From NCBI GenBank assembly GCA_012035135.1, contig JAAUPI010000030.1, positions 1-34,648 on the forward strand: a stretch of 34,648 nt of DNA. Direction: 5' to 3'. The notes under the pieces are model-generated. The model was not told the DNA's origin, did not search any database, and saw nothing but the letters and a program-made list of their open reading frames with translations. Source of the DNA: Microcoleus sp. CSU_2_2 (lineage in GTDB: Bacteria > Cyanobacteriota > Cyanobacteriia > Cyanobacteriales > Microcoleaceae). The translations under genes were made by a program, and so were the position numbers. Shown one piece after another: positions 13,722-21,600 of this stretch. Every line of letters begins with the position of its first letter. The stretch's first letter is position 1.

Positions 13722-15053
13722 TTATGTTTTCCCCTCTTTTATAATTGCAGATTTACTTTCTAAAGCCTCAGAAACCAGTTGCAAATCCCGCAACAATTTT
13801 TCTCGATCGCCCGCAACTTTTACCGCAGTTTCCCAAGTAAAAGTAAAAGATTGAAAAGAATCAGAATCAATCCGATCTTCATCCAAATCCACAATCACCT
13901 GTTTAAAAATATCAAATAACTCTTCCTGCAACTGATCTATTTCATCCAAATTTTTTGCATGACGAATTTTTTCGATTAAACTTAAAATAGCCAAATTAAA
14001 CTGATCTGCTTGATTTTTTTGTTTCTGCAAAAAGCGCGATCGCAACTGCCAAAGCCAAGACACCAAAAGAGTTGCGAGCGACAAATACAAACCCATAAGA
14101 TCGGAATTTGCAGTCCAAAAATCCGGCTTTTCGCGATCGTAATAAGCTTGAGCGCCCTCATGTATGGGCAAAGCCAAACCCCCGCTTCCTCCCGGCTGAG
14201 TAATCATCGCCCCCAGCGAATTAGCAGCTACTAAATTGCGGCGGTACTCGAACAAAATCCGCGTAATTTCCTTCACGATTACCGGATCGACATCCTCCCG
14301 AACCAGCAAAGAAGCCTGCACCCCAACGCTGGGTAAATCCGCATCAGGAACAGCCGGATTTGCCTTGTAAGTACCCTTAGGAATCATATCAGCTTCCAGA
14401 TAAGGCAATTTAATTCTCATCGCAGCTCCTTGGTCGATCGGCACCAACTTTCCCCGCGTATTTTGTAGTAAATCGCGAACCAAATTGCTTCCCGGAGGCA
14501 GCACCCGAAAAATAGCATCAACTTCGCCATTAGCAAACAATTTAGTCGCCTCAGTCCAAGAGCCTGGAGTAGACTGAAAATCGCTTCCTGTTAAACCGTA
14601 ATGTTCGCTTACAAACCAAAAAGAACTATAAGAACCGCTGCCTTTAGCCATCAGCGCAATATGTTTTCCTTTTAAATCTGAAACATTTTGAATCCCCGAT
14701 TCTTCGGCAACAATTAAGTGAAAAACCTCTTTAAACAAAGCAGCAACTACTCTCGCCGAAGGCACTGCCGCCGTATCATTCTGTACGATCGCTAACTGTA
14801 CCTCATTTGCCTGAAGCCTGCGCATATTTTCCTCAGCACCTTGAGTCTCAACAACTTGAATGCGCAGCCGCGGATTTTGTTCAACAACTACCTCAGCAAT
14901 TGCCTGTCCGAAAGGATAATAATTCCCCGTTTTTGTTCCTGTCGCCAGCTTTAATTCATAGACTCGCTGCTTGTCTTGGTGCAGATTCCAGCCAAAAGCT
15001 CCAATCAGGACAAAACTTAATAGAGCAATGGGCAGCAGAAATTTATTTTGCAT
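13722..15053 (-). CDS. TAXI-type solute-binding protein with membrane anchor and C-terminal helical tail
   Basis: 443 aa from MQNKFLLPIAL (15053), where GGAG lies about 13 nt upstream. The frame is open to 15158, but those extra 35 codons come from an IS200/IS605 end and are not part of the family. An N-terminal hydrophobic segment (about 5-22) is followed by the TAXI core: LATGTKTGNYYPFG, VVETQGAEENMRRL, VQLAIVQND. A second membrane helix (LYLSLATLLVSWLWQL) at about 335-350 and roughly 95 residues of charged helix follow, so the C-terminus is probably cytoplasmic. No DctQ/DctM-like TRAP membrane genes are nearby, making it an orphan; it may serve as a sensor input rather than in transport. 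Confidence 0.85.
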   Translation of the reverse strand: MQNKFLLPIALLSFVLIGAFGWNLHQDKQRVYELKLATGTKTGNYYPFGQAIAEVVVEQNPRLRIQVVETQGAEENMRRLQANEVQLAIVQNDTAAVPSARVVAALFKEVFHLIVAEESGIQNVSDLKGKHIALMAKGSGSYSSFWFVSEHYGLTGSDFQSTPGSWTEATKLFANGEVDAIFRVLPPGSNLVRDLLQNTRGKLVPIDQGAAMRIKLPYLEADMIPKGTYKANPAVPDADLPSVGVQASLLVREDVDPVIVKEITRILFEYRRNLVAANSLGAMITQPGGSGGLALPIHEGAQAYYDREKPDFWTANSDLMGLYLSLATLLVSWLWQLRSRFLQKQKNQADQFNLAILSLIEKIRHAKNLDEIDQLQEELFDIFKQVIVDLDEDRIDSDSFQSFTFTWETAVKVAGDREKLLRDLQLVSEALESKSAIIKEGKT

Positions 15054-15072
15054 TGGCGTTGAGACTCCATCG

Positions 15073-15168
15073 GTGACCTCCTCCCAACACCAAGCCTCCT
15101 GTCGTCGGCTATGGTGTGGGCTTCCATACCTCACAATATGGCATTTCTGGATCGGCACTTATCTAGAT
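15073..15168 (-). mobile_element. Solo right end of an IS200/IS605-family element
   Basis: 96 bp identical to 17236-17331, where the same sequence forms the last codons of tnpB plus the right end. It contains an imperfect stem (CCCAACACCAAG / CTATGGTGTGGG) and ends at GGAGGAGGTCAC (minus-strand reading) before unrelated flank. No transposase or left end is seen beside it. It is 20 bp upstream of the TAXI gene start and may separate that gene from its original promoter. Confidence 0.85.
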
Positions 15169-15237
15169 AGGATGGAGATCTACACCGCAGCCTAAAAGTC
15201 GATCGCCAATTTTAGATTAAAATTACTAATCAATTTA

Positions 15238-15276
15238 AAATCTGAAATCTGAAATCTGAAATCTAAAATCTAAAAT
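15238..15276. repeat. Heptamer array AAATCTG/AAATCTA upstream of recN
   Basis: Five consecutive heptamers (three AAATCTG, two AAATCTA) plus a partial unit, ending 13 nt before the recN start codon. It is of the same STRR type as at 1-192 but with a different unit. It occupies the place where the recN leader and ribosome site should be. Confidence 0.85.
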
Positions 15277-15289
15277 TGCTCAATTCCCC

Positions 15290-17065
15290 ATGTTACTATC
15301 CCTCAGAATAGAAAACTTTGCCCTAATTGACTGCCTCGACCTAGAATTTGGCCCGAGTTTGAACGTATTTACAGGCGAAACAGGGGCTGGCAAATCAATT
15401 ATCCTAGATGCGATCGATGCAGTCTTGGGTGGCAAAGTTGATCGCCGAGTGATTCGCACAGGAGCAACGCGGGCAATATTAGAAGCTACCTTTGAATTGG
15501 ACAAAACTGCCGCAAGCTGGCTCAGCGAACAAGAAATCGAACCTATAGATGGAAATTTAGCAGTTTGCAGCCGGGAAATTACCACATCTAGCGGTGCTCT
15601 GCGCAGTCGATCGCGCTTAAACGGAATTTTAGTCAACCGCCCGTTAATGGAGCAACTGCGCGATCGACTTGTCGAAATTACTGCCCAAGGCCAAACCGTC
15701 CACCTCGGACAAGAAACCCTCCAGCGGGAATGGCTCGATTTATACGGTGGCAAAACTCTCACTGAAGCGCGATCGACCGTCAACTCCGCGTGGCTAGCAA
15801 CCAGCGAAGCCAAAACAGCCCTAAACCGCAGGCGCCAGTCAGAACAGCAACGCCTGCAAAGACTCGATTTGTTAGAATACCAAGTTCGAGAACTTGGCGA
15901 AGCACACATCGAAGACGCCGACGAATTGGAACACCTAGAACAAGAATCAATCAGGCTCAGTCACGTTGTCGAGTTGCAGCAACAGAGTTACCAAGTTTAC
16001 CAAGCCCTTTACCAAAACGACGCCGACAGCGCATCTGCCGCCGACTTGTTGAGTCAAGCCGAAGCAATTTTAAGCGATATGGCAGTTTACGATGTCAACT
16101 TGCAACCTATCCTAGAAATGGTTAGCGATGCCGTAGCTCAAGCCACAGAAGCCAGCAGGCAAATTAGCAGCTACGGCGAACAATTAGAAGCAGATCCGCA
16201 AAGACTTGAAGAAGTAGACGATCGAATTCGGGAACTCAAACAAATTTGCCGCAAATACGGCCCGCTCAAAGAAGCGATCGCCTACTACCAAAACATCCAA
16301 AACGAACTAAACGAACTTTTAGAAGGCGGCGAGTCAATGGAAGCCTTAGAACTCGCATATCAGGCAGCTTTAGAGCAATTAAAAGACGTTTGCAGCCACC
16401 TCACCACCCTGCGGCGCGAAGCGGCCCTCAAACTCGAAACCAGCTTAGTAGCAGAACTCAAGCCTTTAGCAATGGAAAAAGTGCAATTTCAAGTCGAAAT
16501 CGCAGCTTGTACCCCAACAGCCACAGGTGCAGACCAAATCGCCTTTTGTTTCAGCCCCAATCCAGGCGAACCCCTGCAACCCCTAGGAGCGATCGCCTCC
16601 GGGGGAGAAATGAGCCGCTTTTTGCTGGCCATCAAAGCCTGTTTTTCCCAAATAGAAAGCGCCGGCACTCTCGTATTCGACGAAATCGACGCCGGAGTCT
16701 CCGGGAAAGTCGCCAGCGCCATCGCCAAAAAACTCTACCAACTCTCTGACAAACACCAAGTTCTGTGCGTCACTCACCAGCCGCTAGTTGCTGCAATGGC
16801 AGACAGCCACTTTCGCGTGAACAAACAAACCATTGTCGCAGAACCAAATCTCAAAGAAAATGCAGACAATCCGGAACCTTCAGAACGCACAGTCGTGCGA
16901 GTTTCCACCCTCAACAGCCAGTTGTCTCGGCGCGAAGAACTTGCTCAACTTGCCAGCGGTCGATCGGAAACAGAAGCGATCGCCTTTGCCGAATCCCTAC
17001 TCGTTCAAGCTGCCTCCCTGCGCCAAACTCAGCCCTCTCAGCAGCTCGCCGATCCTCAAATCTGA
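15290..17065 (+). CDS. recN: DNA double-strand-break repair protein RecN
   Basis: 591-aa SMC-like ATPase of recombinational repair, a little longer than the usual ~555. Walker A GETGAGKS is at residues 29-36. A long coiled coil runs from about 155 to 390. The ABC signature ASGGEMSR is at 436-443, and Walker B TLVFDEIDAGVSG starts near 460. The extra length is in the region after about residue 510 (FRVNKQTIVAEPNLKENADN...) and in the C-terminal tail. It is divergent from the TAXI gene, and an STRR array sits in its leader. No LexA-type operator was recognised by eye. Confidence 0.97.
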   Translation: MLLSLRIENFALIDCLDLEFGPSLNVFTGETGAGKSIILDAIDAVLGGKVDRRVIRTGATRAILEATFELDKTAASWLSEQEIEPIDGNLAVCSREITTSSGALRSRSRLNGILVNRPLMEQLRDRLVEITAQGQTVHLGQETLQREWLDLYGGKTLTEARSTVNSAWLATSEAKTALNRRRQSEQQRLQRLDLLEYQVRELGEAHIEDADELEHLEQESIRLSHVVELQQQSYQVYQALYQNDADSASAADLLSQAEAILSDMAVYDVNLQPILEMVSDAVAQATEASRQISSYGEQLEADPQRLEEVDDRIRELKQICRKYGPLKEAIAYYQNIQNELNELLEGGESMEALELAYQAALEQLKDVCSHLTTLRREAALKLETSLVAELKPLAMEKVQFQVEIAACTPTATGADQIAFCFSPNPGEPLQPLGAIASGGEMSRFLLAIKACFSQIESAGTLVFDEIDAGVSGKVASAIAKKLYQLSDKHQVLCVTHQPLVAAMADSHFRVNKQTIVAEPNLKENADNPEPSERTVVRVSTLNSQLSRREELAQLASGRSETEAIAFAESLLVQAASLRQTQPSQQLADPQI

Positions 17066-17132
17066 CCGAAAGGTTGACCCCATTTTTCCGATAATTCGAT
17101 CGGGGGGTGAGATGCGGATTTTTGAGGATCGG
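17049..17132. repeat. 12-bp inverted repeat spanning the recN stop
   Basis: CCGATCCTCAAA (17049-17060) and TTTGAGGATCGG (17121-17132) are exact inverted copies, 60 nt apart, enclosing the recN stop codon (17063-17065). It could form a long-loop 3' structure. No U-tract follows. Confidence 0.6.
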
Positions 17133-17235
17133 AGGTTACACTAAAAATACTTGTATATCGCTGAGGAAATTGACAAACTGGTTCCGATCCGGCACACTGC
17201 CATCAAAGCCCTAACTTCTGCATTGATTGCATGAC

Positions 17236-18300
17236 GTGACCTCCTCCCAACACCAAGCCTCCTGTCGTCGGCTATGGTGTGGGCTTCCATACCTCACAAT
17301 ATGGCATTTCTGGATCGGCACTTATCTAGATCCGAAATCCCCGACAGTACGCCATTACCAGACAGTTTCCATTCCCCCAAGTCCTGGGGTACTACTGATT
17401 CCAATCCTCTCAACAAAACTACTCGAGCAGCAGCATGGTCGCGATGAGTTTGATATTGACATTCAGGACAAATATGCTCCCTCTCACTCAGAGGTTTAGC
17501 TACTGTTGCACCACATTCAGGACAAGTTTGGCTTGTCCCATAGGGATTGACCCGCTCAAAATACACTCCTCGCTTCCAACAAACCCACTCCAACAAAGAC
17601 AAAAATGCTCCAAAAGAAGCATCGACACATTCTTTTCTCAACATTCCTCGGTTGAGTCCCACTGTGTTGAGGTCTTCGGCAAAGATGGTTTGTGCTTGGT
17701 CGCAAAGGTTATGGGCAGTGCAAAGATGAAAATTTTTACGGGTATTACCAATATGGTGATGCAGTCTGGCTACTTTGATTTGGGCTTTCTCCCAGTTATT
17801 AGAACGTTTCTGTTTTCTCGCTGCTCTGCGTTGCAGCACTTTCAGCCGACTTTGCAGAGATTTCAGAAATTTAGGACGTTCAACTGTCGTGCCCTGAGAA
17901 GTCGTCAGGAATTTTTCGAGTCCGAGGTCTATCCCAATCGCTCGCCCATGCACAGGGGCATCAGGAATCGACACATCACAAGCAATGGTAACAATAACGT
18001 ACCATTTAGTATTTCTGCATCTTTAGGAATAATATACTCTCTACTCAGAGAACATCTATCTACCAAACACTTCCTAGACGCCAGCCAATCTTTCAACTCG
18101 CGCCAAGAGTGGTTGTAGACTTTGCGACAAGTTTCCAACCAATCGAGCATGAGTTGCTGTTGGGTAGAGTCAGGGTAGAGTCGGTAGGTGAAGTTCATCG
18201 TCAGCATATTTCTACTATAACATATGTTGACGGTAAATTTATTTTTGAAGGGCATCTAACCCTTCAAAAATACTTGGGGGATGTCCATGTATCCCGTCGC
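17236..18300 (-). mobile_element. Decayed IS200/IS605-family element with deleted tnpB
   Basis: The right boundary is set at 17236, where identity with the solo end at 15073 stops. The right-end hairpin is 17246-17257 / 17272-17283. A perfect 12-bp palindrome ATTTTTGAAGGG-N7-CCCTTCAAAAAT (18241-18271) lies upstream of tnpB and is a good candidate for the left-end transposase-binding hairpin; the exact left end (about 18280-18300) is a guess. There is no tnpA (Y1 transposase), so the copy could move only with help in trans, and its tnpB is broken. Confidence 0.8.
17294..18207 (-). pseudogene. tnpB: TnpB RNA-guided nuclease, internally deleted and out of frame
   Basis: Two parts in different frames. 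The N-terminal ~65 residues (18207 or 18198 down to about 18017: FTYRLYPDSTQQQLMLDWLE, CRKVYNHSWRELKDWL) match the TnpB start. The C-terminal part (about 18013-17294) restarts at WYVIVTIACDVSIPDAPVHG and runs to the end. About 120 residues normally present between them (REC/WED region) are missing and the join is out of frame. The catalytic half is intact: RuvC residues D in GIDLGLEKF, E in FAEDLN, D in HRDHAAAR, and both zinc-ribbon pairs CPEC. It is therefore unlikely to yield a working nuclease, although an internal ATG could express the RuvC half. The last 13 codons belong to the 96-bp repeat. Confidence 0.88.
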
Positions 18301-18358
18301 CAAATCGAAGATTATGGCGCGGGACTTATCGCCTCCCCCAAACCCCCACCATTAGGTT
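18262..18358 (+). other. Coding-like remnant between the two IS relics
   Basis: In one plus-strand frame this stretch reads YLGDVHVSRRQIEDYGAG followed by a proline-rich end before a stop near 18355-18360. It looks more protein-like than random sequence, but I do not recognise a family. It could be a piece of a gene disrupted by the insertions, or chance. Confidence 0.3.
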
Positions 18359-18628
18359 AAAGTTAATCATGCTTGCACCAGCCAGACTTACCGCAAGTGC
18401 AACCACATCCCTCCCAAAACAGGGAAGTCCTACCATCAGGTGAAGAATTTCACCTGCGGGCATTGTGGGTGGCAGGGTGATGCTGGCTCGAGCAGAGTGT
18501 TGAATATTCCTGCTTTTGGAGCCTCAGTAAATAGGCTCGGATGTTCGGAGTTGTCTTGCTCTTTGAGCGAACATCTCAGGGCTACTAAAAGCCCGCGCCA
18601 TAGCTTAATACAGCTATGCGTTGGGTAG
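18359..18628 (+). pseudogene. tnpB: C-terminal fragment of a second TnpB
   Basis: A plus-strand frame beginning after a stop at 18353-18355 reads KVNHACTSQTYRKCNHIPPK, then FTCGHCGWQGDA and ends ...LSEHLRATKSP, the typical zinc-ribbon and tail of a different TnpB subfamily from the minus-strand copy. The family normally reads TSQTCxKC here; the first zinc cysteine is changed to tyrosine (QTYRKC). The DADxN catalytic aspartate motif after the ribbon is altered (QGDAGSS). About 300 N-terminal residues are missing, so it is a dead fragment. Confidence 0.78.
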
Positions 18629-18635
18629 TTTACAG
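18590..18635 (+). mobile_element. Right end of the second IS200/IS605 relic
   Basis: Immediately after the TnpB tail there is a hairpin CATAGC (18599-18604) / GCTATG (18613-18618). It is preceded by AAAGCCCGCGC and followed by CGTTGGGTAGTTTAC, a layout typical of cyanobacterial IS200/IS605 right ends. The exact end, about 18632-18635, is inferred. Confidence 0.6.
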
Positions 18636-18669
18636 ACAAACCCTTACGCTTAAGCTTCTGTAAAGGTCT

Positions 18670-21600
18670 ATGAATTCTGCATCTCCCATTAATCTGTCAA
18701 CTCTGGACAACGGGAACGTGATAGATGTCCCTGTTGTAGGTGAAAACCGTCAGGAACAACACTATTCTCCGCCTTCCTCTCCCTCTAGCAGTACCAGCAG
18801 TAGTAGTGCACTTGCCAAAAGTCAAGGAAACTTCTCTGGCTTTCTCGAACTCCTAAATAAAAACAGTTTTACAGGAGTAGTCAAGGAAGTAGAAGAAAAA
18901 CTGAGGGTTGTCAATCAAACCCTGGGAATGCTGGATAATATCCTTGACAGCCAGGGATTTGACGCCATCCTCAACGAAATGTTGCAGTCAATTACCCTCA
19001 AAACAGGGGAATTGCTGAATGCCGATCGCAGCACGATATTTTTATTAGACGACGAAAAAAATGAACTCTGGGCAATAGTCGCTAAAGACGAAAATGGCAA
19101 AAGCCTAGAGATCAGAGTTCCTGCTCATGTGGGGATTGCTGGAGAAGTAGCCACTGAAAAAAAAGTGGTGAACATTCCTTACGATTTTTATAACGACGAG
19201 CGATCGACTAACGCCAAAAAAACTGACGAAAAAACAGGATATCGCACCTATACAATGCTGGCGATGCCTCTGGTTAATGAGGAAACAGACGAATTAGTAG
19301 CAGTCATTCAACTCATTAATAAACTCAAGCCTAACCACGAAAATTACGGCACTTTAGACCAACAAATTGACAAGGCAGGATTTACTCAAGAAGACGAACA
19401 AGTTTTTAAAGAATTTGCCCCGTCGATTCGCCTAATTCTAGAGTCGTCTAAATCTTTCTACGCAGCAACTCAGAGACAGCGGGCCGCTACTGCCCTGATG
19501 AATGCTGTCAACGCTCTTTCTCAAAGCAGTTTAGACTTAGAAGATACCCTCAAACGGGTGATGGATCAAGCCAAAGAACTGATGAATGCCGATCGCAGCA
19601 CCCTCTGGCTGATTGACGAAGATCGAAATCAACTGTGGACGAAAATCCCGATCTCAGGCAACCTTCAAGAAATTCGCATACCCAGAACAGCGGGTTTTGC
19701 AGGTATAGTTGCCCAATCCGGCGAACCGCTGCTGATTCCCTTTGACGTGTATCACGATTCCCGCGCCAAAACTTCCATAGAAACAGACAAAAAAACCGGC
19801 TACCGCACTTGCAGTATGCTGTGTATGCCAGTGTTTAACGCCGACCACAAATTGATTGGAGTGACGCAATTAGTCAACAAAAAACGACAGGGAGAATTCC
19901 CCGCCTACAACCCAGAAAACTGGCCAGACGCTCCCGAACAGTGGAAAGCGAGTTTCAATCGCAACGACATGGAATTTATGAAGGCGTTTAACATCCAAGC
20001 AGGAGTTGCCCTGCAAAACGCCAAACTGTTTGACGAAGTCAAGCAGCAAGAACAAAGACAAAAAGATATGCTGCACGCGCTAACTAACGGCGTGATTTCT
20101 ACCGATAAAAAAGGCAATATAGTAGCGACAAATCCTAGTGCTCAGAAATTGCTGGGAGTTAGCGATGCCGACTTAGCCGAAGGTCAATCTTTGCGCGAGT
20201 TAATTAAGTTAGAAAAAGGCGATTTTGCCAAATGGTTCGATCTGGCTTTGTCTCCCGAAGATGAGAAAGACCGTCAGCAGTATTATCCCGACCAAGTATT
20301 AGTCGCATCAGAAGGAGAATCGCAGAGTATCAACCTTTCAATTAACTCAATGACAGACGCTACCGACCCCAATAAAGTTAATGGGGCATTAGTTGTGATG
20401 GAAGATATCAGCAGCGCCAAGCAAGTCAAAAACTTGATGTACCGCTACATGACTCCAGAAGTAGCCGAAGCGCTTTTGGCTTCAGGAGATACAGGAATGG
20501 GAGGCAAGCGCAAACACGTTTCGGTGTTGTTCTCCGACATTCGTGGCTACACCACACTTACGGAAAAATTGAAAGCCGAAGAAGTGGTAGTCATGCTCAA
20601 CAAATACTTTGAAGAGATGGTAGACATCGTGTTCGAGTATGGAGGCACTCTCGACAAATACATTGGCGATGCTTTGATGGCTGTTTTTGGCTCTCCAGCG
20701 CCCCTAGAAGATCATGCCTGGTGCGCGATGCAAACCGCAGTCAAAATGCGGCAAAAACTTGCCGATTTTAATGACGCTCGTATTGCTAATGGCGAATTGC
20801 CGATTAGTATCGGCATGGGTATCCATTCCGATGAAGTTGTCAGCGGTAATATTGGCTCGAGCAAACGGATGGAATTGACTTCGATCGGAGATGGGGTGAA
20901 TCTCGCCTCTCGCTTAGAAGGTGCCAGCAAGCAGTACGGCACTGACTTAATCATCAGCGACAATACATACAGAGAATACAAAGAGTGGCTCTACGTGCGG
21001 GAACTCGACTTCATTACCGTCAAAGGCAAAAGCGAACCCGTAATCGTTTACGAACTCGTCGGTATCCATGAGGACAGCACATCACCCATTGGCGCTCCAC
21101 TGACCGAAAAACAGCAACAAATCATCGAACATTACACCTGTGCGCGCGAACATTACAAGACACCAGTTACCCAAAGACTCTCAGAGGAAGAGGTGAGAAA
21201 ATTATTAACTAATGTCGAGCAGATGGCGGAGGCAGAGCTGAAAAAACTTTCCTACAATGTCGATCAACAGTTAGAACACGAGCTGAAGCAGCTTTTGCAT
21301 CAAGTGAAAAAGCGATCAGAGTACGATCCCAACAACCTGTCCGAAGCCGAGAAACCCTTACAGGTGTTGAATCCAGAAATCCAACTGCTGAAACTCGAAG
21401 GCATCAAAAACCTCTCCGAAGATGAAGCAAAACTGCTCCTGCAAGCAAAAGTCAAGCAGCTATCAGCAGAGGACATTAAGGACTTGCAAGATGGCGAAGT
21501 CAAGAAGCTTTTGGAAGCAGACATTAACTCTCCTTCAAATCCCAAAATCAAGAGACTGAAAGCCTCAGAGATCAGGCAGCTATTGCAGGCAAAGATTAAA

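Follow-up and report, generated by a model that had tools for sequence, protein, structure and literature searches.

Can the solo right end of an IS200/IS605-type insertion sequence (IS) still give a guide RNA after the nuclease gene tnpB is gone? The question is raised by a stretch of 34,648 nucleotides from Microcoleus sp. CSU_2_2 (GCA_012035135.1, JAAUPI010000030.1, positions 1 to 34,648), here called the window, which is the whole of contig C186 of a draft genome (5.43 Mb, 357 contigs, 84% complete). In the window, a 96-bp segment occurs on either side of recN, once as a solo piece (copy 1) and once as the right end of a longer element (copy 2). The favoured reading, with a probability of about 0.74, is that copy 1 is a relic, left by a second insertion whose left side was lost along with some flank, copy 2 being a non-autonomous element. 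A guide function of copy 1 in cis is unlikely, and its absence is what we infer. The features on which the argument turns are the following.

15073 to 15168, minus strand: copy 1, a solo right-end piece of 96 bp with the 3' part of an omega-RNA scaffold only
17236 to 17331, minus strand: the segment of copy 2 that is repeated at 15073 to 15168
17236 to 18355, minus strand: copy 2, an IS200/IS605-type element of 1120 bp (right end 17236, left end 18355), with no tnpA match on the contig
17236 to 17392, minus strand: the omega-RNA scaffold of copy 2, complete (130 bits; fitted alignment with 33 of 34 pairs)
17216 to 17235, minus strand: the position of the copy-2 guide (the genome has two more sites at 3 mismatches and none with fewer)
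18356 to 18360, minus strand: TTAAC, the target or transposon-adjacent motif bordering the left end of copy 2
17294 to 18255, minus strand: a tnpB pseudogene in which the HTH_OrfB_IS605, OrfB_IS605 and Cas12f1-like_TNB domains are recognisable
15169 to 15226, minus strand: the sequence that would be needed as the 5' half of a copy-1 scaffold, fitting no better than shuffled DNA
15053 to 15072, minus strand: the would-be guide of copy 1, which overlaps the start codon (15051 to 15053) of a TAXI-type gene

The repeat, copy 2 and the omega-RNA scaffold

The two copies agree in 96 of 96 bp, which rules out a chance repeat, and the bases that border them differ on both sides (G at 15072 and C at 17235; A at 15169 and C at 17332). 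Identity and unlike flanks are thus as the sequence-only reading of this DNA had them. The genome holds only these two matches to the repeat (expectation value, E, up to 0.001). With 0/96 differences, the 95% upper bound of the divergence is about 3% by the rule of three, and copy 1 is consequently recent. The same reading had taken the shared outer boundary for the end of an element, which is borne out by a relative from Microseira wollei (L099, 86% identical): its homology spans 18237 to 18025 and 18019 to 17236 and ceases at 17236, where the right end of the family reads GTCAC or GTCAA. By these comparisons of sequence, the boundary at 17236 is a true IS200/IS605 right end.

The subterminal hairpin and the conserved right end by which membership of IS200/IS605 is judged are both present in copy 2. 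Its left end reads TTAAC/CTAATGG, and TTAAC stands in the matching left-end window of 22 of the 27 relatives that could be counted (two more of the 29 run off their contig) versus 163 of 914 background windows. A clean empty site for copy 2 was looked for and none was found. The TnpB domains detected with Pfam fall in two overlapping minus-strand frames, and between 18025 and 18019 a stretch of 333 nt of L099 is swapped for 5 nt, which shifts the frame. The right end overlaps the 3' end of the tnpB frame, with the stop codon (17294 to 17296) inside the repeat; the family and this overlap had both been recognised from the letters alone. No Y1 transposase gene (tnpA) of its own accompanies copy 2, the 10 Y1_Tnp matches of the genome (three near full length) being all on contigs other than C186. 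Copy 2 is a non-autonomous IS200/IS605 element with both ends, a TTAAC target, a complete omega-RNA scaffold and a broken tnpB.

The scaffold was defined from relatives. A motif search took 24 right ends from 80 loci; two duplicates, one sequence with a long insert and one near-copy were dropped, and the remaining 20 together with copy 2 form the alignment A1. The collecting motif itself dictates the letters at 8 of the 21 positions that are invariant in the 5' part, as well as the terminal GTCA on the 3' side. RNAalifold places 34 pairs on A1, of which 22 show changes on both sides, in a structure that was derived from the same alignment in which covariation was tested. A pseudoknot of 3 bp joins GAC of the 5' hairpin loop to the GUC that borders the guide. 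With the pseudoknot included, paired cells amount to 96.4%, versus 79.8% (standard deviation 0.8) in shuffled alignments and 33-48% when the columns are slid by 1-3; four of the five covariation measures beat all 500 shuffles. The whole covarying structure, pseudoknot included, is found in copy 2. The scaffold measures about 157 nt, so that the 96-bp repeat is only its 3' part. The earlier proposal of an omega-RNA encoded at the right end, with a guide taken from the flank, therefore stands for the family and for the position of the guide, and fails for the 96 bp as a full scaffold. An Rfam scan of 14500 to 18700 gave two chance matches only; scans elsewhere gave two chance matches in L230 and none above the gathering score in L188, L234 and L099.

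Copy 1 covers columns 77-197 of A1. In these columns, 14 of the 34 pairs are whole, 16 keep the 3' partner only and 4 are absent. The missing 5' 61 nt of the scaffold include the 5' strands of 16 pairs and the 5' strand of the pseudoknot, and 21 of the 41 invariant scaffold positions lie outside copy 1. At the 21 invariant 5' positions, the sequence at copy 1 has the expected letter in 7 (copy 2 in all, by construction). At the 13 that are free of the motif it has 5, a count that alone does not separate the rows, since those with tnpB range from 3 to 13. One of the three pseudoknot pairs is formed, and the whole scaffold is not there. A tblastn search of the 3.2-kb locus returned no tnpB remnant below E 0.04 and no left end was seen by eye beyond 15168, in line with the earlier description of copy 1; it consequently lacks the make-up (both ends, no genes) of a palindrome-associated transposable element (PATE). 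The would-be guide has no second place in the genome within 3 mismatches, and no promoter-like site was found on the minus strand in 14950 to 15400, which is a weak test. The suggestion that the solo copy is an RNA source is not supported, given the absent 5' segment with its pair and pseudoknot strands and the failure of the search for an intact TnpB of more than 50% identity in the genome.

The pseudoknot was also examined outside the motif. For this, 34 matches from 32 sources were aligned with the covariance model R1, which was built without window sequences. Once copy 2 and a second weak match on C96 are set aside, 32 rows remain, 23 with tnpB upstream and 9 without. All three pseudoknot pairs are formed in 19 of the 23 scaffolds beside tnpB and in 3 of the 9 others, namely C72 and the short elements L281 and L282. 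The remaining six form two pairs (L286), one pair (copy 1, C228, L269) or none (L284, L285). On these small numbers and on a fitted alignment, the pseudoknot appears to separate short elements from relics. A solo right end can thus be judged by the presence of the whole scaffold, above all of the 5' pseudoknot strand. Judged in this way, copy 1 is rejected and copy 2 accepted, and other elements of the genome and the genus come out as better candidates for nuclease-less guide RNAs.

The origin of copy 1 and its rival readings

The neighbourhood of the two copies is made up as follows.

13722 to 15053, minus strand: gene for a TAXI-type substrate-binding protein (Pfam NMT1_3), with its start codon 19 nt from copy 1
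15290 to 17065, plus strand: recN, between the two copies
18356 to 18628, plus strand (opposite to copy 2): C-terminal remnant of a different tnpB, from a weak match (E 0.002) at 18356 to 18541 and reading of the frame

The TAXI gene adjoins recN in 15 of 29 loci and, of the 17 relatives with a cyclase match, 13 have the cyclase gene on the same contig as recN, no more than about 3 kb away; these recurrent adjacencies make the order of the contig credible. The TAXI side of the relatives aligns up to 15072 in 8 of the 9 longer alignments, the query ending there by design. Past 15072, as read from the sequences, the relatives continue differently, with a native stretch (ATAATGGC in several) that is missing from the window. 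Copy 1 starts at exactly the base of the element end.

A second, recent insertion of a copy-2-type element between the TAXI gene and recN would account for this arrangement. The transposase would have set the right end at 15072/15073. A later deletion would then have removed not only the left end and tnpB but also the omega-RNA scaffold's 5' half and some of the adjoining native sequence. As a side effect, the native sequence upstream of the TAXI gene would have been replaced by the relic. Insertion followed by deletion is favoured because copy 1 has its edge at precisely the base where the element ends, a position that random copying would seldom reach. Relatives hold one comparable relic, an orthologous right end without tnpB in which the pseudoknot is not kept. 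An internal breakpoint in G012:C57 that looked similar was rejected by eye, as the homology seems to extend further upstream. The 96-bp direct repeats flank recN, and recombination between them could delete the gene.

Two further observations concern the neighbourhood. A dispersed short repeat of the TCTGAAATCTAAAATC type, with many matches in the genus, lies at 15200 to 15262 upstream of recN. The opposite tnpB remnant at 18356 to 18628 adjoins the left end of copy 2, and IS debris has gathered in the gap between recN and the cyclase gene.

Several points weigh against a functionless relic of an insertion. The relatives show no perfect TTAAC at the site (in G022 and G025 there is a CTAAC, off by one base), so that a standard insertion cannot be proven, and about 40 bp after 15168 were traced to no source. 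As for the scaffold, the fifth covariation measure, which counts further pair types, does not rise above the shuffles (85/500), and the invariant positions are partly imposed by the motif that collected the right ends. Under R1, which gives copy 2 130 bits, copy 1 still reaches 43.5 bits (E 3e-9), and the fitted alignment forms 15 of 20 core pairs in it. Five TnpB-bearing scaffolds of other subfamilies in the genome score 29.7-45.5 bits, four of them below copy 1, and several form fewer core pairs (C355 6/20, C148 11/20). Neither the score nor the pair count consequently excludes a function. Because the fitted alignment let the flank of copy 1 form as many as these 15 pairs, a shuffled-flank control was made, with plain letter shuffles and each 5' strand free to shift, which approximates the covariance model only. 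Copy 1 formed 16 pairs against a shuffled mean of 14.8, and 601 of 2000 shuffles did as well; copy 2 formed 19, equalled by 5 of 2000. After this control, a covariance score or a fitted pair count alone was rejected as proof of function.

Two rival readings of copy 1 dispense with the deletion of an inserted element. A short templated copy of 96 bp, made from copy 2 by gene conversion, template switching or break repair with no transposition, would explain the perfect identity, the position 2.2 kb away on the same contig and the missing left end. It is rather unlikely, however, for the outer edge matches the element end to the base and copying has no reason to respect it. The fragmented and incomplete state of the draft would allow an assembly artefact, in which the true genome has the whole element at 15073 and the repeat caused its interior to be lost from the assembly. 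After 15168 neither a left end nor the native flank of the relatives follows, and both would need to have vanished with the interior, which makes this account improbable.

The other readings give copy 1 a role. Standing 19 nt before the TAXI start in place of the sequence found there in relatives, and with the TAXI frame open through it from a GTG, it might be retained as a new leader that serves the gene as start region or regulatory element. Of the 11 matches outside the genome, among 98 genomes searched, none lies beside recN by comparison of places, and that strand has no promoter-like site, so that there is little chance of such a role. A standalone omega-RNA gene acting in trans with the guide 15053 to 15072 could draw on a 3' part that is letter-identical to copy 2 and intact at its end, on the covariance match and its possible core pairs, and on the existence of other TnpB-less scaffolds. 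It is nevertheless very improbable: the 5' half and the pseudoknot strand are missing, the flank is no better than shuffled DNA, the weak test showed no promoter-like site, the guide has no second place in the genome, and the search for an intact TnpB gave none with more than 50% identity there. A split omega-RNA has been proposed as the origin of tracrRNA-crRNA pairs (in the part of PMC10097598 used here). That copy 1 supplies the crRNA-like 3' half (scaffold tail and guide) of a natural one, with the 5' half provided in trans by copy 2 or a relative and the whole used by a resident TnpB, is hardly to be expected.

Scaffolds without tnpB in the genome and the genus

The R1 search of the genome, in which 150 of 830 first-look candidates were scored, gave 13 matches at E up to 0.001. 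TnpB was checked upstream with five TnpB queries, within 1.5 kb where the contig allows. It accompanies 10 of the 13 matches and is lacking at copy 1, C72:27549-27692 and C228:4135-4289; more TnpB queries gave at C72 only a short match, inside the scaffold. The C228 scaffold (L190) is a weak match of 33.6 bits with no TnpB nearby and, by eye, lies upstream of a ribBA-like frame. Four scaffolds from other subfamilies (C278, C355, C126 and C152) have open frames of 379-432 amino acids next to them. The search for an intact relative of the copy-2 TnpB, which the sequence-only reading had proposed, found none above 50% identity in this genome, which is 84% complete. Apart from copy 2 itself, this value is exceeded solely by a C-terminal piece on C134 (71%), and C96 is cut by the contig end. 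An intact TnpB of this kind may be located in the portion that the draft does not cover.

In the genus, all 20 matches of 52.5-71.4 bits among the matches listed (59 genomes) were fetched, of which 14 have TnpB upstream and 6 do not. Three of these six (G018, G011, G002) are one orthologous place, also seen in G012 and G024; TnpB was searched at the first three. In the five relatives (L284, L285, L286, L004, L007), this right end reads GTTAC or ATTAC and its 5' part is eroded. The sequence upstream of it looks, by eye, like the remnant of another transposase. G012:C57, also without TnpB, is a truncated end. L281 (G024:C544) and L282 (G027:C514) have in common a stretch of 318 bp, 97% identical, at different places. 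They are a second type of short element, with a scaffold and a pseudoknot and no TnpB. The wider idea of scaffolds without tnpB holds for other elements in genome and genus, and is not supported for copy 1 as an RNA source.

The C72 element (L188) measures 377 bp and is a clean insertion at TCATC. The sequences that flank it directly adjoin each other in G011 and G015 (one left base unaligned), and 3 bp lie between them in G013. Over 43 nt, the 5' segment of its scaffold shares 84% identity with the corresponding segment of C278, next to which there is a full-length TnpB frame, and the pseudoknot letters are kept. R1 fits it weakly (34.5 bits, 8/20 core pairs, fewer than copy 1). From comparisons within its own subfamily the scaffold appears near-complete, the fold itself being predicted at most.

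A query of 241 bp (element and flank) matched at least 32 of 44 genomes, some in the flank only, and in at least 21 other genomes (L228-L248) roughly 100 or more bases of the element are covered by the best match. At 17 of these 21 loci TnpB gave no match; at the other 4, the match is a C-terminal piece at the scaffold, no longer than 56 codons. The ends were compared in 20 places, namely C72 and 19 loci (L240 and L235, which begins at a contig end, were left out): TCATC stands at the left end in 14, the lengths are 362-386 bp, two have a second possible site, and the sequence beyond the right end differs among the places. An alignment of 17 rows, which also leaves out L229, L243 and L248, has a TATAAT box near the left end in five rows (by eye). 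As only 14 of its 62 predicted pairs change on both sides, the leader structure is not proven. The C72-type elements, which code for no protein and comprise a left end, a leader, an omega-RNA-type scaffold and a right end, look like PATE-like elements carrying a guide-RNA gene and are candidates for mobile guide RNAs used in trans; the idea of scaffolds without tnpB would fit them better than copy 1. In other bacteria, PATEs with omega-RNAs have come under discussion.

Comparison with known systems

Standalone, trans-acting omega-RNAs of IscB were reportedly described by Altae-Tran in 2021. The idea of a guide RNA without a nuclease gene is common to them and to this locus; copy 1 is, instead, an incomplete TnpB scaffold. 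As far as the part of PMC10097598 used here describes the ISDra2 type of IS200/IS605, copy 2 is alike in its ends, in the short target kept on the left, in the tnpB domains, in a 3' scaffold overlapping tnpB and in the 3-bp pseudoknot of the 3' end with a 5' segment. The targets differ (TTGAT in ISDra2, TTAAC in copy 2). Unlike this type, copy 2 is without tnpA and its tnpB is broken, and copy 1 lacks the left end and the 5' scaffold. In ISDra2 TnpB, the 3' end pairs with bases about 105 nt upstream in a pseudoknot that is conserved in Cas12 guides (same part of PMC10097598); the pseudoknot of the copy-2 family resembles it, a parallel drawn here. The PATE-like element of Halanaerobium hydrogeniformans consists, in the portion of PMC7290912 used here, of 28 nt of left end, the last 58 nt of tnpB and the whole right end (about 271 nt). 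Copy 1 is similar in that a right end survives the loss of the genes and, having no left end, is not a PATE, whereas the C72-type elements do resemble PATEs as that portion presents them.

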